A stretch of DNA of 64,000 bases, taken from contig NC_087381.1 of NCBI RefSeq assembly GCF_963675165.1, forward strand, positions 7,472,419 through 7,536,418, written 5' to 3'. Shown piece by piece: positions 6,621-64,000 of this stretch. Positions within the stretch are counted from its first letter, which is position 1. Each line of letters opens with the position of its first letter. A program made the position numbers and the translations under genes. Under the pieces are notes generated by a model. It ran no database searches. It saw only the letters and a program-made list of their open reading frames with translations, and had not been told where the DNA came from. This stretch comes from Halichondria panicea (taxonomy: Eukaryota > Porifera > Demospongiae > Suberitida > Halichondriidae).

Positions 6621-6703
6621 TAGCCTTGATCCCAGACCAAGTTTTTGCTTTTGTTCGCCTAACCTTTATAAAATCAAATACTCGTGGTCTGAGATCGAGG
6701 CTA
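6621..6703. mobile_element. Mini element of the TAGCCTCGA TIR family
   Basis: The ends tagccttgatcccagacc and ggtctgagatcgaggcta are inverted copies. The flanks are atggaaccc on the left and atggaacca on the right, a 9-bp target duplication with one mismatch. It belongs to the same family as the RecQ-carrying elements at 17823 and 30655. Confidence 0.75.
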
Positions 6704-14819: not shown

Positions 14820-17125
14820 ATTTTGTATTATAGCGCATCATCCGAAAACTAGAAAGGAAATTCTACAGTGGAACCTCCATTAACGACCACCTCCAAAGAG
14901 CAACCACACGCTATATAACGTCCAAAAGCTCAGGTCCGGATTGAAACTACAATGACTTCAATCATAGATCGAAGAGTTAGAGGGATAGGAAACGGTTGGT
15001 ATCTCGAGTAACATCCGCGCTACGCTGCGGTTTAATCGAGGCCATCACAACAATATCTATTTCTACACTCAGTGCATAATAAACTACAAGTATAACTGTG
15101 CTTAGTCCATGCAACTCACTTATATTTCAAGGTCTATACCTATTGTAGTAGTCATAACCAGCACGCTTACACCTAGCCTTGGTCCCAGGCCGATTTTTTT
15201 AATAGAACGAAGTTGAAAAATACGGCCTGGTCGTGGCAGGAACCGGAAACCAAAGCAGAGATTCTTCACACTTTGTTTCCTGTCATATTTCACCGTATAA
15301 GTTTAATACCGTAATTTAGCTCCGTGTATGCTCTTAGGTAACTGATTAAGGAGGGATAGGGATTGGAAACGCAATAGAACCGGTGTCACAGCAGATACAG
15401 TCCGGGCCAAAAATGTGTCCGGCCAGACACTAAACACTAGCGGAAATGGTCCGAACTGATTACTTTTTAGCAGAAACTGTCCGTCTATCAATAGCAGTAA
15501 TTCACTGCCAAACCACCCATTGGCTAACTTCATTTTACAGCAAGGAAGTGAAAAGACAGAGTCAGAGTAAGATATTAAAGTGTAAACAGCAATAGAAGTT
15601 CTCAGTCTGAATAAAATAATATAATAAAAAATCTAGACCTAGCTACAAAATTAATCATGAAGATTACAGATACATGAATACTTAATGACTTGTTATCATC
15701 AGTCTAGTCAGGTGGGAAAACAACGCATCACTCTAGGAACTATGATACAGGTCTTGTGGTATCATGCACTCTTCGCATTTTGCACATTCTATCATCTACA
15801 CTCCCTGCTTCTTTGGTCTTGAGTGGAAGAGCTTCTGCCCATTGGTACATGTAATGATGTACTTATTTCCACGGGGTGTCTCTTTTAGATCTAGTGGGCT
15901 AATCAAATCATTACCAATCCTGTGCCAGACACTGCTGACAGGCACACAGTTTTTGTTAAGAGTGAGATTGGCTCGTTGGCAGCTATCACAAGTGTTGACA
16001 AAGTTGTTTTGATCATTTCATTCTAGTAGTGCCTGCATAATATGCATGCATTTCATTATGAGCTTTTTAATACAACTGAGTGTACAACCTTAATTAAATA
16101 ATGCCTGAGCTTATCTTCTCCCTAGTTTTAAATGCCCAGCTAGCTTGTCTGAATGACAAACAGTTATGATCCTCTTCTTTCTACCCTCATCTCTGATCCA
16201 CTACCTCTCTCTCTCTGCCACCATGAGTACGTGTAGTAAAGAAGGCCATCATAAATTCTGAACTTCTCCTTTAATATGCTTCTCGATCTGGCCCCTTCAC
16301 TTGCATTATGCTATCTACGGTTTGTCCCCCCAGACAATACACGCGGCACCAGACAGGAAATGCGACGCGAACGCTGTCCGGCACGTTTCTGCGCGCGCAA
16401 TTAGTCCCCCGGACCGAATTCTGGCCGGACTTTATTTCCTGTGACACCCGGATAAAACCACCCGTGTTACGGTTGACGTCATGTATATGATCAGGCCTCG
16501 AAACCAGGCCACCAGGCTTGAATCGTGGCTATATCGAAGATGGCTGGCTAGGAGTAGCAAAAGACAGAAGACAGGGCTGATGAGCAGCAAATGTGATCAT
16601 TCCTGCATACATGCTGTAGGGGAGAGCTTGTAGCATCAGCCAGATTGAGCAAAACTCTCCTCTGGATCTCACCTAAGACACTATAGGCTCTATAAAGACA
16701 GAATTATATATTATTATGCCTGTTGGCCATTTGGAAATATCAACTGTTTATTGGCCATTATTATTGTGATATTTATGACATTTTTGTGAAATATAAATGA
16801 AGCTTGTATGGAAAAGTTACAAAAACAACAAAACTACAAAAAAACTGTCTTGTTCTTTCGTGACTTTTTAACTTATATAGGGATCCCATAATCTTTCTGA
16901 AGTTATTTCTTTCTTGTATTTGCCTGATGATGTTGGAATTTGGGTCTTCAAGGCATATCTGCATACACAAACGGTCGACATGTTCAACGTTTACCTACTA
17001 AATTGAGCAAGGTATAACTTCTCACAAGAATGCATTCAGGTCATAGAAATAAGACATTACGATGAACCTATTCCTATGCTTGGCCTATAACTAAAAATTG
17101 TGAAATTATAACCTCTTCACCTCTG
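14820..17125. other. Transposon debris, no gene seen
   Basis: Recognisable pieces are a pogo-like end (tacagtggaacctccattaacg, near 14872), a copy of the GGATTGGAAAC repeat (about 14958-15170, with ctcgagtaacatccgc and gcggtttaatcgaggc) and a partial TAGCCTTGGTCCCAGGCCGA copy at 15173. The remainder contains no supported coding sequence. Confidence 0.45.
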
Positions 17126-17134
17126 CATAGAGGT

Positions 17135-17227
17135 TAGCCTCGAACCAAGCCCAACGTAAAATTGGGCTTGGTTCGAGGCTAACCTCTATGCAGAGGTGAA
17201 GTTTACGTTGGGCTTGGTTCGAGGCTA
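17135..17227. mobile_element. TAGCCTCGA-family mini element, perfect 9-bp TSD
   Basis: It begins tagcctcgaaccaagccc and ends gggcttggttcgaggcta, flanked by catagaggt on both sides (17126-17134 and 17228-17236). An internal partial duplication repeats the right end. No coding capacity. Confidence 0.85.
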
Positions 17228-17524: not shown

Positions 17525-17582
17525 TAGCCTCGATTCCAGGCCGATTAAAATACGTATTTTAATTGGCCTTGAATCGAGGCTA
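17525..17582. mobile_element. 58-bp TAGCCTCGA-family element, perfect 9-bp TSD
   Basis: It is a near-perfect palindrome from tagcctcgattccaggcc to ggccttgaatcgaggcta, flanked on both sides by ggttgtgcc. It consists almost entirely of the two TIRs. Confidence 0.85.
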
Positions 17583-17822
17583 GGTTGTGCCCCAGCCCAA
17601 CTTTAGAAGCTGGAGAAGAGGAGTTTTAGCATGGTTTTAGTTAAGTTGCTGCTGGAGGTTAACGCCCACTGCCTATTGCACTCTGAACCGTAACACGGAT
17701 GGTTTCAAGACAGAGGAGGTCGGACATCACCTGAACTTTCACTAATTATGATCTTTTAATGACATTCCAGGCCAAATTACGTTTCGTTTTTGCTGACTCA
17801 GCAGTAGCATCTACTGTACTCT

Positions 17823-19827
17823 TAGCCTCGAATCCACGCCGATTAAAATACGGCCTGGTGTTCATTGCAGGGGTGTTAGTGCACATGCGCTGCACAATTA
17901 CCCAGAATCTGGGTAATCGTGCACGCCAGTAAAACTTTTAGTAAATGTTACCGTAAACTAGCTGTAATACTTGGAATTTGTTCCGTGTTACTATCAATGG
18001 CGTCGACTGAGTTTTGTGAAGCTGTGGCTTATGCTCTTCGTTGCGTTGGTCTAAAGGATCTCACACTGAAGCCAAAGCAAAAGGAGGCTCTCATCTACCT
18101 GTATGACAATCTCATGATGTCTTTCTTTGGTTCCCCACGGGCTATGGCAAGTCTTTGTGCTTCCAACCTGCTCACTGAAGCGGACAAGCTCTAGCTCTAC
18201 AAGAGTTGAGAGAAGTGTTGTGCTGGTGGTGTCACCACTAGTGTCTCAGGCCTCCGGAAGAGAGGGGCCGTGTCTCTGCTGCTATATTGTCTGGCAACAA
18301 AGGTATTAAAGATGTAGATCTATATTAAAGAATAGGAACTGATGATATTAATGGCCTGAACTTAGTGCATTATTACAGTCAACACTGATCCTTCATTTCA
18401 TAGATGTCGAGAAGGACCTCCTTGCTAGTGTGAGTGACGTGTCCGAGGGTCGGTTCTCTCTCCTCTATAGTGCTCCCGAGGCACTCCTTGGTAGAGAAGC
18501 GTAGAAACAGCTCCTGGTCCAACGTCCCCTCTGTGACTCTGTAGTGGCAGTCGCTGTTGACGAAGCACACTGTGCGTATAAGTGGTAAGCAAGAGTGGTT
18601 ACAGTATTTATTCGATTTGAGGCAACGCTTTTAAATATTACGAATTCCCAGGGGTGGTTACTTTTTGAGGCAGAAACATTATTTTTAAAAGTCCTTGTAG
18701 GGAATCCACTAGCCTCTATTCCAGGCCACTTTAAAATACGAACTACATGTATTACAATAAGTGGCTACATCATTTTAGGACACGACATATAAAACAACTC
18801 AGCTTGAGAAAGTGCTACTTTGATAATGTCCTAAGATGTAGTATGTTGCATATTTGGAGGGTCTCCTTAAAAAATGTACACAAGATACAATATATACATG
18901 ACGATTGTACGTTAAAACATAGTACCTTTACATGTGCTCTACTGTCTACGCAGTTTTGTATAATGATTTTACAAATTCCCCCTCACTCAACCACTATTTG
19001 TCTAGCACTTTGGTATGGCTTTCACTGATCTTTTTGACATGTTTTAATATCGCTTCATAGCTGATTGATGTGGTTTAGCCTGGCCCAAGCCTAAATTAAT
19101 AATAATTGAATAATGACTCTACTTACCATGTGATAAATGTACATAATTATGTGTTTGACTCATGATTATTACCGTACAATTATACCTTGACAGAGTGTTT
19201 GTCAGTAGGAGTGCTGGCACTCGTAGTCTATAGTGTGCACTCAATTCCAGCTATATTTATTAATTAATTATTGTTTTTTTATACAACACTCTGCAGGTAC
19301 AGAGATCTACCATTGGGTTGCTGAGTACTGGCAGTCTCACCAGAAGTTGCTTGAGTATAACGTTGCTCCGATCCCTCAGCGGCACATCTCGTTCACATGG
19401 AGCAGTGACTAACAAAATTAATTAACAGTAATTTTTGAAACTCATCTTACTCTTGTTTTTATTACTCTTGTCCTGGACGGGGAAACAGAGTCGCCTTCCA
19501 GCGGCTCCAACGGTCTAACGCTTAGCTAATGGTGGTCTTGCTACGTGTGTGTGTGTGTGGAGAAACCCCTACCTCATGCACTAGTGTCTTTGGATATCTT
19601 TCTCGGAGCCGAGTATACTCATTGGGGTGCCAGTGACACTTGTGAGAGGCCTGGGTAGCCATCTCTAGCTCTCTGTTGTTTTAATGTATTTTTCCTACAA
19701 AGTGGTATAACGTATTCTCATTCTGTTTATTTTCCGTTTTATTATCAACAATAAATTTCGCGCATGTGCACTAACACTCCTGCAATGAACACCAGGCCGT
19801 ATTTTAATCGGCGTGGATTCAAGGCTA
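17823..19827. mobile_element. 2.0-kb TAGCCTCGA TIR element carrying RecQ helicase sequence
   Basis: The first 68 bp (tagcctcgaatccacgccga...gtgcacatgcgc) are repeated inverted at the right end with two mismatches. The flanks are ctgtactct on both sides (17814-17822 and 19828-19836), a perfect 9-bp target duplication. The interior holds a decayed RecQ-type helicase fragment on the plus strand and nothing recognisable as a transposase. Long TIRs with a 9-bp duplication would fit a Mutator-like superfamily, but that assignment is inference. Confidence 0.85.
17997..18584 (+). pseudogene. Decayed RecQ-type helicase N-terminal fragment (in element 17823-19827)
   Basis: It begins ATG with MASTEFCEAVAYALRC. 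A shifted frame then gives WFPTGYGKSLC (Walker A, motif I), followed by VVLVVSPLVSQ (motif Ia region), LLYSAPEALLG and AVDEAHCVYKW (motif II, intact DEAH), then a gtaagc donor. Frameshifts and stops separate the pieces, so no full protein is made. The order and spacing match the first RecA lobe of RecQ helicases. It parallels the better preserved copy at 30898-31620. Confidence 0.75.
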
Positions 19828-21157
19828 CTGTACTCTCTGCTAGCTCTGCTAGTCTCTATTTTAGCCGCCCTCTAAAAGTTGGGCGGCCTAATCACGAGTC
19901 TATGTTATAGAGGGCGACTAATTCATGAGACAATACTTTTGCACGGTTTCTGTTGCTGAATCTGTTGACAGCTAGTTGTGTGTTTGGTGTCTATGATGTT
20001 GAGCTTAAAGCTTTAGCAATTAATGGAAAATAACCTCCCAGAATGGACAGCCACACCCAGAATTAGCAGAAAATTTTTGCTGAGATAGCATTACTTTGCA
20101 CAATCGTGAAAACCTAACTGTAGCTTGTCCCTACAGCCTTTTCAAAGCTCCAAGATTCATTTGCAGCAAGAAATGAGCATTGGTTAGAAAAGAGTGGTGG
20201 GGCTGCTGCACTGTTTTGCAGTTTTTGTGGGTGGGGTTCTCCACGATGACTATACTGAGCATGCGCAGAAAGCAACTGCAAGTCTCCTGAGTGTTTCCTA
20301 ATTTTTTGTCCCCCAGAAATTTTCTTTGTAGGTTGGCACCTATGTGGATGCCAGTGCTGGAAGGTACGTGTGTTGGACACTCAGCTGTAGAGATAATTTG
20401 AGGTTGAAAATAAATTAATGCATGAACAAAAATATTATGCAAAACATGCAGGCTACTATATTATACGCACACAGCATTTGAGTATAATTATGCGTGATCT
20501 ATTTTTTGTTTTCGCAGCCTCTGATAATTATAGCTAAATGTACCTATTATTCAAATCACTGTCTTACATGTAACGATTAGTACAGAAGCCCATTAGGGCA
20601 ATTCATTTCTTAGTTAGGAAGGTCAGAGGTCACCACTAACTTGGAAGTCCGTAGATGAATAGCGCTATATATAATATACTTAATAAAATGCGTAGTGGAA
20701 ATTTGTACCCATTACTTTATGTAGTGCATGCATGGTGTTACATCTATATACATCAACACTAATTATTGTCGTTCTTTTCCCAATCGCTGTAAATTTGATT
20801 TTATAACTTACGAATCCATTAATTTTAATCAGATTATGAACAGGTACCGTAATGGTATACGGGCACTATAATTAGACATGCAGTATATACAAACAGACAT
20901 GCCATAATTATCGTGAACTATACTAATCAGAGTGGTAGTGTATATGATGTAATTGTCTTATATTATTAATATAATAACTGTGGTTCTATAAGTTGATGGC
21001 TTTACTCGAGCCGTCTTGTCTATGTGCTAATCAATCGCCCGAGTGTTAAAGCAAGTGTTGTTGAACATAGCATTATTATAGCATGCAAGTTAAGTACCTA
21101 AGAAGTTACTACACAAATTTAAATCAATTTTACACTCAATATACAAAACACACTTAC
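19828..21157. other. Gene-free interval between transposon and gene B tail
   Basis: No coding sequence is supported. An acceptor-like ctctacag followed by a minus-strand frame ECPTHVPSSTGI (near 20385) resembles the start of a CCP exon but breaks off at once. Confidence 0.35.
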
Positions 21158-21737
21158 CCACACAACGCGGTTCTGGATCACTCCAAATTGGACAGTCACT
21201 TCCCGCTGGATTTTGTATGCATCTCCTATTCAAAATACCATCAACTGGAACCAAATTTCCCCTGCACAGATATATTGCAACCGAGCCTAAACTTCTCACG
21301 CCAGTATATCTAATGTCTCCTCTCAGCCCTCTATCCCGTAAAGCAAGATCATTCTCAGTCTCCATTTTCGTTGAGATCTGGACATAATTCTGAATACAGA
21401 AAGAGATTTTACATATACAAATAGGTTTGATAATTATCTGTATAACAATAAGCAACAATACTAAATAAGCACTGACTTACTTAAACATGATCGAGTTCCA
21501 ACACTCCATTCAGCACCCGTTAAAATGCCTGAAGTAATTATTCTACGACAAAATTCGTCATTGTCATTAGTTAAGGCAAAGCCTGGGTTACAGGTACATA
21601 GAAAGCTTGGGTACCAACAATAAATCCACCATTCAAGGCATTGGGATTGTTGGGGTCAGCAGGCTGTAGTACAGCAGTGTCCTCGAAACTTATAGCCCCA
21701 TCTGTGATACTTAATTCGCCGGGGTCGCAAAGTAGAA
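21158..21737 (-). pseudogene. Decayed CCP exons downstream of gene B (A-type tail)
   Basis: Two CCP-like exons with intact splice borders, 21481-21737 and 21158-21389, both frameshifted. The first reads LLCDPGELSITDGAISFED and then, after two extra bases, CNPGFALTNDNDEFC...WSVGTRSC. The second opens LCPDLNENGD, hits a stop, and resumes in another frame as RGDIRYTG...CPIWSDPEPRC. They correspond in order to gene A exons 3 and 4 (compare PDWDLPIPEC). Their lengths (257 and 232 bp) are not multiples of three, unlike all healthy exons here. They look like former 3' exons of gene B or of an A-like gene. Confidence 0.7.
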
Positions 21738-21765
21738 CTGCATATTTATAATTGCACGATAGTAT

Positions 21766-22004
21766 TCATTTATATAAGTATAATGTTCGCCTGCACGCTG
21801 GCTCCTCTCCTGACCATACCAGCTCACCAGCAATTAATTTACAAAGTCTAGTATCTCTTCCGATAGTCCCTATGCTTTCTCCTTCACAAGGAGAATATTG
21901 GGCAGGGGTTGAATCGAAACGCATATTAATGCCCATGGAATAGGTAATGGTCACACCGAATTGTAGGAAACTTGACACTAACAAGGGGCACATTGGTGCA
22001 GGAC
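21766..22004 (-). other. Gene B exon 26: terminal CCP, read-through to stop
   Basis: It encodes MCPLLVSSFLQFG...GELVWSGEEPACRR and then LYLYK and TGA. It keeps a Trp at the CCP position like gene A exon 2, which it resembles. Where a GTAAG donor would be expected (after the codon following the last Cys) the sequence is gaacatt, so splicing to the decayed exons downstream is probably lost. Confidence 0.65.
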
Positions 22005-25000
22005 CTGTATAGAAGTATAATTATAATTATACAAACCAAGCTATACTAGCTAGGCCGGACATGACGTTTTGGGTTTGATTTGGAATACACATTATCCTCA
22101 AACTGAACAGCACCGCAAAATTAGTCATTAGATTTGAGTTAGGGCGTGTCGGCTATTTTCTGAAATGCGACCACCTCGTTATTCCGGCCAAGCTGCACTG
22201 TCCCAAGGGTGGCCAGATTAACGAGAGTCTATACCGTATATACATGCATGCATGTACAATAAATGCAATAGTATGTATATAATATGACTGAGCTGCCAAG
22301 TATAGCAACTAACAGTAGCTGGCAATAACACTAAACTAAGACTAGAGGCATGCTGAAACGTTTAAGATAAAACAGAGTTTTAGATGAGCCGGGCACTGTG
22401 GACAGGATGACATACCGTCTTTCTTCTAATTACAACACCACTGCATGTCAGTTACTATTTACCATTTCCATTTCGTAATTATTTCGTAATTATTTTATTG
22501 TGGTGCTTAGTACGTAATTAGAATGTATTATCTCTGGCAGAGGGGGGCATTGTGCTGTGGGAGAATAAAGCTATTAACCAATTGCAAACACTAACTATGA
22601 GTCCACGGTATTTTGCAGGAATTGGGCCAAACAATGATATTTGATTTGACTATATAAGATTTCAGAAAACTGGTTTACAGCTGTTCAATACAATTGATTG
22701 ATATCAGCTGATCATGTAATAGCTTACGTTCGCAAGTTGGAGTCTCTCCATCAAATCTGCCACCGCTACCATCACCAGCATCTACACACGTCCGCACCAC
22801 ATTTCCTCCAGTAAGCACGTAACCTGGGTCACATCTGTAGGAGGCCAAAGTGTCAACGTCGTAAGGAGCAGTCATGTCAACATTGTAGACAATCACTCCA
22901 TTGGTTATCGTTGTAAGCATATCGCAAACAGCTACAGAGAGAAAGTAAAGGCACGATAATTGTGTGTCAATCAGAATAAGATCTTACGTTCGCAAGTTGG
23001 AGCTTGTCCACTGAATCTACCACCACTACCATCACCAGCATCCTCACAAGACCTCATCTCAGAGCCTGGATTTATTATGAGCTCATAACCTGGGTTACAG
23101 CTGTAGGTGGCCTCAGTTCCAACGTCGTAAGGAGCAGTCATGTCAGCATTGTAGACAATCACTCCATTGGCTATGAACTCAAGCGTATCGCAAACAGCTA
23201 CAGAGAGAAAGTAAAGGCACGATAATTGTGTGTCAATCAGAATAAGATCTTACGTTCGCAAGTTGGAGCTTGTACACTGAATCTACCGCCGCTACCGTCA
23301 CCAGCATCCTCACAAGACCTCATCTCAGAGCCTGGATTTATTATGAGCTCATAACCTGGGTTACAGCTGTAGGTGGCCACAGTTCCAACGTCGTAAGGAG
23401 CAGTCATGTCAGCATTGTAGACAATCACTCCATTGGCTATGAACTCAAGCGTATCGCAAACAGCTACAGAGAGAAAGTAAAGGCACGATAATTGTGTGTC
23501 AATCAGAATAAGATCTTACGTTCGCAAGTTGGAGCTTGTCCACTGAATCTACCGCCGCTATACCGTCACCAGCATCCTCACAAGACCTCATCTCAGAGCC
23601 TGGATTTAGCACTAGCTCATAACCTGGGTTACAGCTGTAGGTGGCCTCAGTTCCAACGTCGTAAGGAGCAGTCATGTCAGCATTGTAGACAATCACTCCA
23701 TTGGCTATGAACTCAAGCTCCTCGCAAACAGCTACAGAGAGAAAGTAAAGGCACGATAATTGTGTGTCAATCAGAATAAGATCTTACGTTCGCAAGTTGG
23801 AGCTTGTCCACTGAATCTACCGCCGCTACCGTCACCAGCATCCTCACAAGACCTCATCTCAGAGCCTGGATTTAGCACTAGCTCATAACCTGGATTACAG
23901 CTGTAGGTGGCCTCAGTTCCAACGTCGTAAGGAGCAGTCATGTCATCATTGTAGACAATCATTCCATTGGCTATCATCTCAAGTTCAGCACAAACAACTA
24001 CAGAGAGAAATATAGATTGATTATGTACGTACATGCATTTACGTACATAATCAATAGAAATGCCCACGGCTGTACAGTATAACATAAAACATGTTTACGT
24101 GTGTGCAGTCAAGTTTGACTTACTGGGAATATCCGTTTCTCACAAACAATTGCAAAGCATGCTCATTATTAATTGAGTGCTGATATCATTGCTGTGATAC
24201 TGAGTATGCTGATCTGTATGTGCAGTTAAACTCACAAATACGTTCACAGCTTGGAGCCATGCCACTGAATTCTGCCCCTGAAACCACGGTGCTGTCACTC
24301 TCTGTGGTTTCTGTGCAAGTTCTCATCTGGTCACCCACTCCAGCCATGAATCGAAAACCATCGTTACAAGTGTAAGTGGCCACAGTGTCCACAGAGTACA
24401 GAGCAGTCATGTCAGGAGAGTACGAGATCATTCCATTGGGTATCGCCTCAAGCTCCATGCATACAGCTATGGAGAAAAACGAATGAATATAATTATACTG
24501 ATATGCATATTCACACACAATGTTGATGCTGGACTGTGCTTATAATGTAGATACGCATACTATAATTATTATAATACACTGCAATATATAATTATACTTA
24601 CTGCACTCTCTTCTGATTGGACGGAGGGCTTGTTGATCGGCAGGAGTGAGGTAGTCCATTGTGAAGGCCTCCACTTGTGCCCTGTCAGTGATGTCAGCGA
24701 TGGTTCCGTCGCTACGCCTCAGGTCTCCAGTCTGAGTTCCGCACAATCCACACGTCTCTCCCAGTGAGCTACCAGTAGCCACGGTCACAATTATTGAAGA
24801 GGGGTCACCTGAGATATAGTATCATACAATGACCTTACGCTACGCATAACAACTCACCATAATTGTGTCGCACGTTGACTCCGATTCCTCCGCCCACTCT
24901 AATCTCAGTGTAATTGTCACCTCTCTCCACCTCAACATTGGAGTCTGCATACACTGTTGTTTCACGACCAGGTACCCCGGATACCGACGATGCTGCTTCA

Positions 25001-28000
25001 GAGCTCTCGTAACTACCGTCCTCTCGACTGATCCACGAAGCTCTATTCTGTAATTATTAAGACAGTCAAGTTTACCAAGAGGAAATAAATATGCGGAGCA
25101 TAACCAATTACACTGTATGTTCTAATTAAGAGGTAAGTCCCTCAAATTCACTCACAAAGAAAACTCCGACAGCTCCGTTATCCATACTGTCTGTGAGGAA
25201 GTCAGTGCGGACCATGAAGTCCACGCTGTTGTCACATGACTGGAGGAGGGCGTGTTCACACGTGCCCATGAATGTGTAGCTGGTGGAACGTGTGAACGGA
25301 GATACCATCATCGGGTCAGCTATGGTGCAGATTGTCATGTCAGTGGCTGTAGGAAATAATGATATAATTATTAAGGATGTTCACTTGGGCATTATAGCAA
25401 GCAAACGATAGCTATGTATAAAGCTAGCTACCTGAGTTTTGTGATACAGTAGAACCTCGATTATCCGGCCCTCGATTATCCGGAACCTCGATTATCCGGC
25501 TTGGCAGTTTTCTTTTTAATCAGATTACATAATTCAGAAAATGGGCGTGTCCCTCAAATGCGCATGCGCGTTGCAGCTGTTACCATGGAGACATGCCTGC
25601 TTTTCTTTTGCGCATGCGCAGACAACATGTGGCACTGCTGTTCATCAATAAAGTGGGTGGATCAAGGCGTGGTTTATCTATTCGATTATCCGGCATATTC
25701 ACTTATCCGGCCTGCTTCTGGAACCAAGGTGTCCGGATAATCGAGGTTCTACTGTACTGAGTATGCATGCTGATGTGTGCAATTGAACTCACGAATATGT
25801 TCACAGCTTGGAGCCATGCCACTGAATTCTGCCCCTGAAACCACTGTACTGTCACTCTCTGTGATTTCTGTGCAAGTTCTCATCTGATCACCCACTCCAG
25901 CCAGGAATCGGAAACCATTGTTACAAGTGTAAGTGGCCACAGTGTCCACAGAGTATGGAGCAGTCATGTCAGGAGAGTATGAGATCATTCCATTTGGTAA
26001 CGTCACAAGCTCCATGCATACGGCTATGGAGAAAAAAACATTCTCATGAATGCCAATTATTATATAATAACAAAATTGATTGCTGATTTCATCGCTGCAC
26101 TTACGAACACATCTTGGTTCCTCTCCATCAAACTCTGACCTAGGATCATCAGCCGGCATCTGTTCCAGTGGTAGGCAAGTCCTCATTGAGTTGCCCACTC
26201 CTGGTACCAGTTCAAATCCATCGTCACACCTATAAGTGGCCACTGTTCCGGCAGAGTAGTTAGCCGTCCTGTCAGGAAAGTACGAGATCATCCCATTGGT
26301 TATAGCTGGGAGCTCTACACAATTACCTGTGATGTGCATGTGTTGTGTCTGGGTTACTATACGTCTTACATGTATGTAATGTCAATATGGGTTCATAGCA
26401 ATGAAAACATTCCTACGTACGTATGCACACAAGAAGGCTTTACATATATACTTACGTGTGCAGTTGAGTTCAATTTGGAAAGATGTTCCGTTCCTCACAA
26501 AGACTCCTCCCTCTCCTTCTACTATCTCGCCACACTCAAGCAAGATCAGCTCACCGGGTCGTGGGAAGGTAGTGGTTTGTCCAGGGCTAGTAGTTCCTGG
26601 ACTGAATCCATCAACACATTCAAACATAGCTAAAGCTCCAGCAGGAAATGGTGGGACAGGTGCGGTGTTGTAGGTCACCATCGCATTCGGTGGAACAAAG
26701 ATCTGATCACATTCAGCTGAAGAAAAAATTATTGATAGTTACTGATAGCTAATACTAATATCTCGTCTACTTAAATGATCAGTTTACTCACGGTCGCAGA
26801 CTGGTGTTTGAGGCGGGTCAAATACTACATCCCCTCCTTCTGATTGTACACAGATTTTGTTATCAGGTCCGTTAACAAGAGCGTAGCCAGTGTTGCAGAA
26901 GTAAGTGGCCACAGTGCCCACTGAGAAGGGATCATCATTGTATTCAACGCGTCCATTTTCAATGACTTCCAGCTCAACGCAAAGAGCTGTGTGAGAGAAG
27001 ACAAGAAAGTGATTATTTATTTAGAAAGTGTGTGAATTGATTTCGATTTGCAGAAGTTTAAGTTCAAAAGAGTCCACTTACGTATCAAGACACAGCGAGG
27101 TTCCTCTCCATCAAACATCCCATCTTCCCCACAAGTCCTTGTGATGGAGCCCTCCAAAGTATACCCATCCACACATTGATAAGTGGCTACAGTGTCTATC
27201 GGTCTTGGGGAGGTGGCACTACTGTAGCTAATGACTACATTGGCCAAAGCTGGTAGATCATCACAGGTGATTTCTGTGAAAGGGAGCATTACGTAACTAA
27301 CAGTTATCAGCAGTCAATCTTAGTATAGTCTTACCTTCACAGATTGGAGCTTCTTGATTAAACTGCCCGTCAGTTGCACCGATGTCCTCACACACCCGCA
27401 CTTGCGTACCCACCAGTCTGTAGCCACGGTTACATACGTGGTTTGCATTTGTGTCCAGTGAATAGGGGGCCACAGTATCGGACTCGTAAGTGATCTCTCC
27501 ATTTGCAAGAGACTTTAGTTCTTCACACTCGATTGCTGGAGGGAAGCAGTCATTTAATGTTATGCACTACTTTGATGTATTGCTGATAAACTTACGAATG
27601 CAAGTTGGAGCTGTCATATCGAACATTCCAGAGCCAGCGTTCTCCACACAAGTTCTGCTCACTGGGCCATTGAGGTTAAAGCCATCATTACAAGTGTATG
27701 AGGCGACTGTCCCTATCGGCCGTGGCATGTCAGCAGAACTGTAAGAAATTACTCCATTGACGATAGCAGGCAAGTCAGCGCACACAGCTGGAAAGGAATA
27801 AGTATTATAATTATACCATGAATAAATAATTATATACTACAATAGAATAGTAATATTAAAAGTCCACTCACGAATCATAGAGCATACAGGTTCCATGCCA
27901 GAAAATGTTCTGTCAGATTGACAATCTCTAGTTACATCTCCACTGAGAGTAAATCCATCTTCACAAACGTAAATGGCCGTAGTTCCGACGTCGTAATCAG

Positions 28001-31000
28001 GAGTGTTATCAGGAAGATAAGTGATCATTCCATTGGCTATCTCTGGCAGAGGGGGGCATTGTGCTGCAGGGAGAATGAAGCTGCATGAACAAATTATAAG
28101 GTGCTTATAGGGTACAAACACTATAGTTCAGAGTCGATGGTATTATAATTATAAGGTGCTTATTGGGTACAAACACTAGTTCTATTAACTAAGAGTCCAC
28201 GGTAATTTGCCCTATTTGTACTTTCTAAGAAATGGGTTTGGGGTTTCAATACAATTGATTGATACCTGCTGATCATGTAATAGCTTACGTTCGCAAGTTG
28301 GAGCCTCTCCATCAAATCTACCACCGCTACCATCACCAGCATCTACACACGTCCGCACCACATTTCCTCCCCTGAGCACGTAACCTGGGTCACATCTGTA
28401 GGAGGCCAAAGTGTTAATGTCGTAAGGAGCAGTGATGTCATCAGTGTAGACAATCACTCCATTGGCTATCATTACAAGCTCATCGCAAACAGCTGCAGAG
28501 AGAAAGTAAAGGCACGATAATGGGGTTTGTATCATATAAATCTTACGTTCGCAAGTTGGAGCTTGTCCACTGAATGTAGCACCGCTACCGTCACCAGCAT
28601 CATCACAAGACCTCATCTCAGAGCCGGGATTTATCACTAGCTCATAACCTGGGTTACAGCTGTAGGTGGCCACAGTTCTAACATCATAAGGAGCAGTCAT
28701 GTCACCAGTGTAGACAATCACTCCATTGGCTATCATATCAAGCTCATTGCAAACAGCTGTATATAATTACAATTATTAATAGTATTAATTTGTGTAAGTA
28801 ATGTACGGATGCACTCGGGTTCAATTCCACCAAAGCTTCCGAGGCCAGAGCCTACTTGTACATCACAGGTTCTCATTGAGTATCCGTTCATCAGTATGTA
28901 GCCACTGTTGCAGGTGTAGGTGGCCACAGTGCCATCAGGGAAGTTATCCAGTTTGTCAATATTGTACGATATCACTCCATTATCGATATCAGATAGTACA
29001 TCGCAAGAACCATCTGTGTGTATATGATGGCAATTTCAGTAGCAAATTGAACAAACCGACAAGATGGGATCTATGTAGAATCTAATTCGAGCGCAAAACT
29101 ATACGCTATTGGGCATTCAAAAATTGGATTATAGCCTTTCTATAATTATTAAGATTAACAACTTATGCCTGCTATGTGTCTATCGTTAATAGATAATAGA
29201 GTCAAACACACAAACAGGCCCAACCATGGCAGGCTACTACCATGCACACAAGCTAACCATGTTTTGGGGGTCAAAGTAAATAATTCATGCATGTACATGC
29301 ATATACTTTAATTGGGGTATAATTTTTGAAACACCTATAATTATGAAGCACAGTATGCAAAGATACTGACCATCGCTGTCCTGTATAATAACTTGAGTAA
29401 CTTTGGTACCATGCCCTGTGAATGCGCAATGAAGTCTAAGTTAGATAGACCACACCCCCTCGCGTCTTATAGTAACCACCTTGGTAACAGTTAGATTCAC
29501 TCGGCTTTGCCTCAAGCTAACTACAACTGCAGAGGTTATACAGACGCATATTTTACTCCCTATATACATAGATACCTCCTATGAACAATATCTATCTGAT
29601 TCACTCTGCATATATAATCATATCTTATAGGTGATTTCCAGAGAATAATGGCTAATATTTTTCCTTATACATACAGGCACTATTCAAGGTTTACTACAAA
29701 AAAAATAATAGACTGTATAGACGCAATGAAAAATTTGTGTATAGACTTTGTTTTGAGCTAGCTAGACGTACCTAGCGTCTAAGTCTATAGAAGCTAGCTA
29801 CATATTACAGTCATGTTCATGAGGTCAAACAATGCAGTCAAATAATTCTTGCTCTGCATGTGGTTCTAGTCAAGGCTGTGGCTCAGAGGTAGAGGAGTAT
29901 ATAAGTAGTGTTGTTGACATTGCATGATAGACTCGACTTGTGCAGCAGTGCAAATGGCAGCTAGCTGCTGATATTGATAGGCTGGATCTGTGGCTTCCAG
30001 CAGAAAACCAAGCTTTAGCAATCAATCTGAATAGCTAGCATGAATAGCTCCCAGATAAACAGTAGCTTAGGAGTGTGCTTGAGTACCCTGAGCCCATCTG
30101 GATACGCACTGAATGGGGCTATTGATGTTTTTCTTTTCAGCTATTTTTGAGGATCTTGCCTGTCGCTCCCGCTCCCTAATCTTTCTTGTTTTGTTTCATT
30201 GTCACTCTTTATTCTCGTACTAAGATACATTTTCTATTTTTCTATTGAATCACGTAGAAATTGGTAAAGGATCACGAGTCCTAAAAGCAAATATCGTATG
30301 CCGGTTCATGCCGGTCTGCCGGTCCATGACATACATACCACGGACCAACGTTGAAGACTAACTAAGGGACTCGATCGCTTCGCTCTCCCCATGCAATTAC
30401 TATAGTCAAGTAGTCAATAACTATTATACTACTGTTACAATATACACTTGTAAAACGTACCAAGTGTAACCAGTGTGCTCCATTGTCCATCGGCAGCAGC
30501 TGTCTTAGCTCTGACCTACAGTCGTTATTATAGAGAGACGTTGAAGAGCCTACTCACTAATTAACATACTCAAACCGAAGAACTATAACCACTTAATTAT
30601 ATATACCTTCAATGTTATGATTATATAATTAGCCTAGCTGAGCTACCGTATTACTAGCCTCGATCCCAGGCCGATCCGTCTCTAATTGAACGCTAGGTCG
30701 CCTCCTCGGCCTGGTATTGATTGTATCTGGGCGTGTATCTGGGCGTGCTCTTATTGGCTCCACCTCGCTCAGGTATTCGCTAAAAAAGAGCGAATTCCTA
30801 AGCGACTTAACACTAATGGTGTATGTATGAGCACCTACTCCGTAAAAGTAATTGTAATCTCATGAATAGCTCCGTAAAGCTAGCTAGCTACTATACTATG
30901 GCAATTTTTCAACGTCTTTTGATATCCAAGAAGCATTAGCATATGCACTGTCTTGTGTGAAGCAAGAAGGACTGATCCTCAAGGAACAGCAGGTCCGTGC

Positions 31001-34000
31001 TCTCAAGCTCCTGTCAGAAGGAAGGGACGTTTTTGTGTGGTTCCCAACTGGGTATGGCAAGTCTCTGTGCTATCAATTGCTACCCTTCTTGATGGACTAC
31101 AAGCTTGGTAGGACTAAGGGTCCTCTTGTCGCCAGAAGTGTAGTTTTTGTCATCTCTCCCCTTGTGTCTCTCATGATTGACCAGGTCAGGAGTCTGAACA
31201 CTGGAGGTGTTTCTGCTGCCATCCTCAGTAGTAATAAGGGAATCGACAGAAGTCTTGTTGCCACTAACAAAGATGTGTCGGATGGAAAGTACCGTCTGCT
31301 GTTCACTGCCCCAGAGGCTGTTGTTGAAGACTATCGTTGGAGGATGCTATTACTAGAGCCTCCACTCAATTCCTCTTTAGTGGCAATAGCTGTGGACAAA
31401 GCACACTGTGTTTACAAGTGGTAAGTTATTAATAACTCCCGTTGTGATTATTATGTATGTTCTGTAGGAGCTCTGACTTTCGTCCTGCCTATGCACACCT
31501 AGGTGAGCTTAGAGCATTTGCCCCTCCTGGTGCTCCAATGTTGGCTGCAACGGCTACTGTGACAGATGTTATGAGGAATGTGATTGTGGAGGTTCTCGAA
31601 ATGACTGGGTGTGCTGTTGGACGCGAGCTCACAGTGAAAGGAGATGCGTCGGAACCACTCGTGTCCTTAGTCCTTTTCTTAGGGGCTGATCTTACTGGAC
31701 TACTAGGGAGCTGCTCTTTGGACACTTGTTTCTGGTAGCTACGTCTGGCCAGGAGCCTGAACACCTCTATGGACTCTATCTTCTTGATACAAGAAAGACA
31801 GACAATCTTTGACAGGCCATCTGAATCACTAACAGGCAGATCCAATGCAAGACTGAGCCTCCCTGGAATATCTTCTTTGAGAGCCTTACTGCTGAACAAA
31901 TGTTTATATCTTCTGTTTTGTATGGCATCAGTGCTGCAACATAACCTACAAAGAACAAACTTAGAAGCCATTAATTTTATTCAATTTTCATTTGACCACA
32001 TGGACTTAATAATAATAACAAAGTCACGCCCAGATACAATCAATACCAGGCCGAGGAGGCGACCTAGCGTTCAATTAGAGACGGATCGGCCTGGGATCGA
32101 GGCTACCGTATTACTAGAATGTTTTGCGAGCATCAAACATAATTATAATTATGTAAACTTTGCGAGGGTTGATCAATATAATTTGTTCACAATAATAAAA
32201 TCGCAAAACCTAAATTATTACTAGTAAATACACACAAGTACACGATCCTTTCCAGAACGCAATAGTTAGATCGCAAATTAGGGTCAATAAGTATAGCGCA
32301 AAATTTTAAGACACTTAAATTTCGTGGAATGGCCTCTAAAAGCATTTCGTTGAATAATTTTCGTGGGTTGACTGCTTACCGGAAGCCACGCCTTTAATCT
32401 TTTACGTTATAGCAAATAATTCTAGTGTTGTGTAGGATTGCTAACCCACAAAAACAGCAAAAATTAAGCACTTGAAAATTTTGTGCTATATGATATACTT
32501 CTTGCATTACTGGCAGATGTACCAATTTACTAAGCTATACTAACCCACCTGGACCATCACTCTCTCTCGATTGCTGGCAGATACCTCATCTCCAATGACG
32601 TGGAACAACTCTCTGTTGCCCTTAACAACAATTACATTATCTGAGCCAGGGTTTACAAAGTTCACATCATAGCCAGTGATTCTTCCGTAGCTCCGACGGG
32701 GAGTGGTCCATATTACAACATTGTAGAGTCCTAGCACTCGAGATGGGGCTTCAGACCCTGCAATAGAATAGATAGCTTCATGAATCAGTGCATAGTGCAG
32801 CATCAGAGTCGTAGACAGCGGGGGGGGGGCAGGGGGGCAGTTACCCCCCCTGGCATTCTAGATCTGCAATATTACTGGGAAGCAGAAGCCACCTTCTTCG
32901 CTCAAGCTACCTTTGTTTAGTTTAGCTAAGTAGCTAAGTTGGTGCCACAGCAAGTTTACAAGTTGCCATGAACAGAAATAGCTAACAGTTGACAGTTAGT
33001 AAAAATGTTCAGGTGTTATTTTTCCACCTGCAAACATGAGCTATATATGGCCATAGAAATATGGCGGGGGGGGGGGGCTTCAGCCCCTGGAGCCCCCCCC
33101 TTCCTATGCCACTGTGAATAATTCAAATAATAAACAATATCTGTGTATTTAATTTCCATAGCCTCCAGGCACTCACTTGTATCCCCTGTCATGGCAACGA
33201 CCTCACAGCTCCTGCTCTGCCCTCCCTCCTCCTGACCACTCACTCCATTCTCAGGGATCACTCGAATGGTGTAGGTGGTGAGTGGCCGCAGACCAGACAC
33301 TGAGTAGTCCACCAGGGTATCTTGTTTGACATACGGCCTCCTGTTGTGTTGAGTGAAGGTCTGGTTGTCCTCAGAGTAGAATATGTTGTAGTAGAAATCG
33401 TCTCTCCCAGTGATCTCAGGCCTCTCCCAACGCACAGTGATGGAGTTACCTCGAGTTCTTTGTTGAACTAACTCTATGTTTCTGCATACACCGGAGGGAG
33501 CTGTGTATATGCGTGTATATATCGTGGGGAATTAAGTGATAGAGATATCCATAGACTGATGTCATTCTTAACTACGGTATCTTTAACCTCAATCATATCA
33601 AAGGATACAAACCACAAACCATAACGCACTTAGCAACATGACCACGCAACCATGCACATGCACACATGCTCAATTTTTAATCAGCTAGCAGCATACAGAG
33701 AAAGGAAGGATTGGAAACAAAGGTACCCTCGAGTAACATCCGCTTTACCCCGCGGTTTATTTAAGGCTGTCTTTACAAGCCAGAGCTGTAGATGGGCGTG
33801 GCTCGGCTAGCTAAGCTGATGGCCTATTTCTACATAATAAACCATGCACTAGCAAATATGCTTATTCTATGCAACTTTCTTATATTATATACCTAGTTAT
33901 AACCAGCACGCTTACACGTTATAGCAATAAAAGACTCGATCATTAATATAACACTTGGAAGTTTATAACTTCACTGAAATGTCTCCTTCACTGGGTGTGG

Positions 34001-36849: not shown

Positions 36850-64000
<27,151 letters not shown>

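Follow-up and report, generated by a model that had tools for sequence, protein, structure and literature searches.

How did two transposable elements in one stretch of a sponge genome come to hold the same half of a helicase gene? In the 64,000 nucleotides of Halichondria panicea analysed here (NC_087381.1, positions 7,472,419 to 7,536,418; hereafter the window), elements A and B are each bounded by terminal inverted repeats (TIRs) and 9-bp target site duplications (TSDs). Both carry the first RecA lobe (lobe 1) of a RecQ-type helicase in the same orientation, as an initial annotation made from the sequence alone had noticed and as tblastn and, for element B, a Pfam DEAD match bear out. Longer copies in the same genome hold the answer: they are very probably AcademH-type cut-and-paste DNA transposons with two convergent genes, one for RecQ and one for a transposase with the domain DUF6589. 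Elements A and B hold the 5' parts of both genes and are therefore non-autonomous internal-deletion derivatives, not gene captures. Both are repeated in the 131-Mb genome; in the searches for their copies the best 40 candidates were scored, and the copy counts from these searches are to be read as "at least".

Full-length elements and their deletion derivatives

The longer copies measure 5.1-5.8 kb, have TIRs starting with TAG(C/T)CT and contain a two-lobed RecQ gene together with a multi-exon DUF6589 transposase gene on the opposite strand. In family A, that of element A, L027 (5821 bp, TSD TGCCGGCCT) has the RecQ-type helicase and, on the opposite strand, DUF6589 accompanied by a weak match to zf-AD, while L025 aligns to it over most of its length with broken reading frames. 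L024, the full-length model of family B, has a zf-AD exon besides the helicase. Family C comprises six copies with common ends and a length of 5349 bp, one of them with an insertion of about 226 bp, and exact 9-bp TSDs flank four of the six (TCTAGTGCT, TCCACAAAC, ATATCATAG, CAGTAGAGT). Four of the five other copies differ from L059 at only 2 to 4 positions, as counted over 3597 bp of each in ungapped alignment (L060 could not be aligned without gaps). Their RecQ displays the motifs TGYGKS, DEAHC, TATAT and QETGRAGR and a cysteine cluster, and their transposase the motifs GDNIDK, GGDQLT and EHLN. Family D has a length of 5343 bp, and the single copy examined is flanked on either side by the TSD TATCTTCTT. 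It is one of three further lineages in which a TIR search found none; its ends were located by where its copies stop matching, and no ends were found for the other two, L090/L091 and L092/L093.

With Pfam, all four families (A to D) showed DEAD and Helicase_C. DUF6589 was matched at 1.1e-21 to 1.2e-35 in A, C and D as well as in four other lineages, and zf-AD in family B (3.3e-7, 6.3e-7) and, weakly and below the cut-off, in family A (4.4e-5). No other domain reached the Pfam cut-offs in the element open reading frames (ORFs) scanned. By eye, the N-terminal position of the transposase bears cysteines in families C and D as well. The helicase of family C groups with WRN, BLM and RecQ (phmmer against the PDB, best 9.2e-37), and for the DUF6589 exons no PDB entry was matched in a profile search.

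Eight short copies, namely the window elements A and B and L010, L012, L015, L021, L022 and L023, map to L025 or L024 as internal deletions. Element B corresponds to positions 249-499, 1286-2013 and 4383-4871 of L024, the stretch 500-1285 of L024 being an insertion that has a 9-bp repeat of its own. Its deletion join at 2013/4383 is common to L010, and L012, L015, L021, L022 and L023 have a different one at 1944/4186. Element A joins L025 around 1355 and 3861. The two genes begin at opposite ends of the element and are read towards its centre, so that loss of the central part spares the beginning of each, and two families can therefore show the same half-gene without any capture.

The initial annotation had missed the 5' part of the second, minus-strand gene, which tblastn located in both elements (Table 1). 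It had also let both helicase pieces stop at the same exon border (YKW/gt). This is correct for element A; in element B the gene runs on through an intron at this border and ends at about 31618. The border itself is an intron position that is also present in full-length L027. In element A, no Pfam match was obtained in the one frame scanned.

Table 1. Coordinates of elements A and B, their parts and the small copies in the window, followed by the genomic positions of the family C copies
Feature	Position	Strand	Remarks
Left 9-bp TSD of element A	17814..17822		CTGTACTCT; read from sequence and TIR/TSD script
Element A, 2005 bp, internal-deletion derivative	17823..19827	+	TIRs 17823-17890 / 19760-19827, 97% over 68 bp
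RecQ exon 1 relic, element A	17988..18304	+	Walker A TGYGKS retained, frame broken; tblastn
RecQ exon 2 relic (DEAHCAYKW), element A	18404..18587	+	Stops at shared intron border
Relic of transposase exon leading up to GDNxDK motif, element A	18967..19068	-	tblastn with L025 exon, 82% over 34 aa
N-terminal transposase exons, relic, element A	19464..19658	-	tblastn
Right 9-bp TSD of element A	19828..19836		CTGTACTCT; read from sequence and TIR/TSD script
Left 9-bp TSD of element B	30646..30654		CCGTATTAC; read from sequence and TIR/TSD script
Element B, 1451 bp, internal-deletion derivative	30655..32105	+	TIRs 30655-30735 / 32025-32105, 100% over 81 bp
RecQ lobe 1 coding stretch, open, element B	30897..31420	+	Pfam DEAD 1.4e-10
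Intron at YKW/gt border, element B	31421..31467	+	Read from sequence; same position in full-length L027
Start of next RecQ exon (SSDFRPAY...LAATATVT), element B	31468..31618	+	Motif III LAATATVT; cut by internal deletion
First transposase exon with zf-AD zinc finger, element B	31612..31980	-	Pfam zf-AD 6.3e-7; 97.6% over 123 aa to L024
Right 9-bp TSD of element B	32106..32114		CCGTATTAC; read from sequence and TIR/TSD script
83-bp MITE	6621..6703		TSD ATGGAACCC/ATGGAACCA, one mismatch
93-bp MITE with nested foldback	17135..17227		Exact TSD CATAGAGGT
58-bp MITE	17525..17582		Exact TSD GGTTGTGCC
41-bp MITE	37045..37085		TSD ATCTGTATA/ATCTGTATG, one mismatch
Family C copies	C1:1329568-1334916, second on C1, C8, C10:1593011-1598359, C10:1620706-1626054, C17		
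MITE, miniature inverted-repeat transposable element.

Joint descent of RecQ and transposase

Genome-wide, the 68 matches to DUF6589 fall into 52 clusters, and the 117 matches to RecQ lobe 2 into 96. A RecQ lies tail-to-tail at no more than 3 kb from 39 of the 52 DUF6589 clusters, compared with a mean of 0.24 and a maximum of 3 under random placement (2000 draws); counted from the other gene, 40 of the 96 RecQ clusters have a DUF6589 partner. In the ten lineages with both genes readable, the tree distances of RecQ and transposase are correlated with a Mantel r of 0.986, a value reached in none of 20,000 permutations. Within one genome, RecQ and transposase have descended together in these ten lineages.

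Host RecQ genes were identified by means of the TIGR00614 model. The branch between element and host RecQs has a support of 99/97 (12 versus 4 rows, two host rows being under half filled), and a lobe-1 tree that includes the window copies is split with 100/99 (8 versus 3 rows, one host row being under half filled and one long-branched). The RecQ of element B is nearest to L024 (96%, fork 82/89) and that of element A to L027 (84%, fork 87/89).

The initial annotation had offered two origins for the half-gene, a helicase belonging to the element lineage or a single captured fragment that had spread. The former is borne out by the two-lobed RecQ beside a transposase in the longer copies, by the matching phylogenies and by the placement of each window RecQ next to its own family; the latter is contradicted, since the window RecQs are nearest to their own full-length families and not to host genes. 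Many genome copies contain RecQ, and every element RecQ included in the trees lies apart from the host RecQs, so that neither a rarity of RecQ among the copies nor a closeness to different host genes, which that annotation had named as arguments to the contrary, was seen.

Target site duplications and small copies

A script that sought TIR pairs with 9-bp flanking repeats recovered all six copies that had been reported from the window with such duplications, although these are exact in four only, with one mismatch each at 6621 and 37045. A broader search for ends of the TAGNCTCG type, covering the window and the genome loci retrieved, gave 81 distinct candidate TIR pairs. Exact flanking repeats of 9 bp were present in 24 of them (one left end, in L012, being counted in two pairings), of 8 bp in one and of 7 bp in one; repeats of 6, 10 or 11 bp did not occur among the 81, and shifted-end controls (lengths 6-9) gave one 8-mer in total. 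The TSD length of 9 bp is not due to chance, and the small copies in the window are MITEs that belong to the same type as elements A and B.

The 93-bp MITE contains a perfect foldback with 40-nt arms (window 17115-17227, 20 bp of flank included), which looks as if it were a product of hairpin repair or template switching. A further, palindromic MITE of 67 bp at window positions 37850-37916 has TAGTCTCG ends and flanks that differ at two positions (GGTATCAGA/GGTACCAAA). Exact 9-bp TSDs also flank other types of MITE, whose ends are TAGACTCG or TAGTCTCG, at L016:2393-3152, L031:1132-1418 and L012:53-661, and more families of the same kind therefore exist.

Among the larger copies, five members of family A lie on C13 (G000:C13:5.57-6.04 Mb, L004-L008), with a TSD found in three. 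Because these three, L004, L006 and L008, carry the same TSD GAAAAAATC, the C13 copies probably spread by segmental duplication and not by transposition. The two inverted family C copies on C10 have one common 9-bp flank, ATAGAACCA, and their remaining two flanks differ; the common flank suggests an inversion by exchange between the copies.

Relationship to Academ and alternative explanations

An Academ lineage encoding a helicase, AcademH, was reportedly described by Kojima in 2020 (Mob DNA 11:15). We file our elements as AcademH-type because their 9-bp TSDs and their helicase match its description, and because the 4-bp TSDs of a RecQ-free relative in the same genome match AcademX. According to the excerpt of PMC10045372, TSDs are 9 or 10 bp long in AcademH, a range that includes the length seen here, and 3 or 4 bp long in AcademX, and the difference seems to be tied to the encoded enzymes, helicase and nuclease. 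The initial annotation had called helicase-linked TIR elements of this kind unfamiliar; such a transposon type is, however, already described in animals and fungi, and the window elements are most likely a new member of it.

The RecQ-free relative, L026 (G000:C3:3626468-3632667), is a 6.2-kb DUF6589 element that has CAGT ends and an ORF of 1617 aa, and further copies are found at C9 and C14. All three copies of this type have 4-bp TSDs (ATTA, TTCA, GTTC), one of them is nested inside a RecQ-bearing L027-type element, and no significant match to RecQ was found inside the L026-type element. It looks like AcademX, whereas the window elements, with RecQ and 9-bp TSDs, are not of the AcademX type. 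Its core and the RecQ-linked DUF6589 core were aligned by hhalign with a probability of 91.5 (E 8.4e-7). No relatives of either DUF6589 type were found in viral-contig scans.

In the mechanism that we propose, the N-terminal part of the transposase would bind the TIRs, and the DUF6589 core (GDNxDK, GGDxxT, EHxN) would act as a putative DDE-type catalytic domain, in which we presume the choice of catalytic residues, excising the element and inserting it with a 9-bp stagger. RecQ may act at the ends or the gap, unwinding or processing the DNA there. A tentative and rather doubtful extension is that the RecQ partner helps to set the stagger of the cut and that the two-gene tail-to-tail design may be an undescribed form of AcademH.

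Several observations weigh against this classification and this division of labor. The filing under AcademH was made by description, that is by TSD length and helicase; the AcademH-type and AcademX-type cores gave no significant match in BLASTP/tblastn (E 0.32; best 0.025), and the C-terminal part of the L026-type protein has no nuclease match in Pfam or the PDB. The DDE assignment was made from conserved motifs, and a model of the exon with the first two motifs reached a predicted local distance difference test score (pLDDT) of 30 and a predicted template modeling score (pTM) of 0.24. Pfam did not find zf-AD in families C and D, and L024 is degraded: its DUF6589 match is short, and all three transposase motifs are missing. 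On the helicase side, the element RecQs score at most 198.9 bits against a TIGR00614 cut-off of 219.8, the exception being one family C copy, neighbors counted, and RecQ_Zn_bind stays below its Pfam cut-off. Finally, 12 of the 52 DUF6589 clusters have no RecQ within 3 kb and one is in tandem, while 56 of the 96 RecQ clusters, host genes and fragments among them, have no DUF6589 partner.

A host RecQ fragment captured on one or two occasions by MITE-like or Mutator-like elements and then spread by them would agree with the half RecQ of the window copies, and literature excerpts describe both the 9-bp TSDs of Mu and the capture of genes by Mutator-like elements. Nevertheless, for each of the window copies there is a matching longer element whose RecQ has both lobes, the element RecQs stand apart from host RecQ in the trees with L024 and L027 as the nearest rows of B and A, and the RecQ tree mirrors the transposase tree, which leaves capture very improbable. 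We consider it just as improbable that selection kept the lobe in the short copies, where it might, for instance, have acted as a dominant-negative regulator of transposition. The whole lobe-1 stretch is matched by fifteen other family B copies, and that of window element B is open over 178 aa; the changes among the 16 copies, however, are 29 nonsynonymous, 15 synonymous and 1 stop against an expected 69/27/4%, the net indel relative to element B is not divisible by three in 11 of the fifteen (some being shared by descent), and element B has DKAH for DEAH (DKAHC in place of the DEAHC of the consensus of copies). The RecQ pieces of family B in short copies appear to drift without clear constraint, which makes them most likely passengers.

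A separate superfamily outside Academ, whose DUF6589 elements recruited RecQ on their own, is unlikely, even though it gains from the reliance on descriptions noted above, from the failure to find the term DUF6589 in the literature collection searched, and from the position of the genes on opposite strands, a feature not stated for AcademH in the excerpt of its source; TSD length and helicase fit AcademH, and the RecQ-free relative agrees with AcademX in TSD length. An origin among Kolobok relatives with RecQ (KolobokH) is hardly credible. These do encode RecQ, and one rhodophyte Kolobok has it on the complementary strand, but in the excerpt of PMC9587614 Kolobok TSDs are TTAA-specific and 4 bp long, the RecQ of KolobokH lies downstream of the transposase domain, and KolobokH is reported from fungi only, whereas the TSDs of our elements are 9 bp long and of varied sequence and their transposase is DUF6589 by Pfam. 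Elements of the Mutator-like type, with another transposase, were rejected because Pfam detected no MULE domain in the scanned ORFs of the elements. Helitrons have neither TIRs nor TSDs and were rejected because the window elements have TIRs and 9-bp TSDs.

For the AcademH-type elements of this sponge, RecQ is an integral part of the transposon, and a transposase role is indicated for DUF6589, a Pfam family of unknown function. DUF6589 elements with RecQ and 9-bp TSDs and others without RecQ and with 4-bp TSDs coexist in one genome, one inside the other. The closely similar full-length copies, together with a relative of different TSD length, make the role of the helicase in transposition testable.

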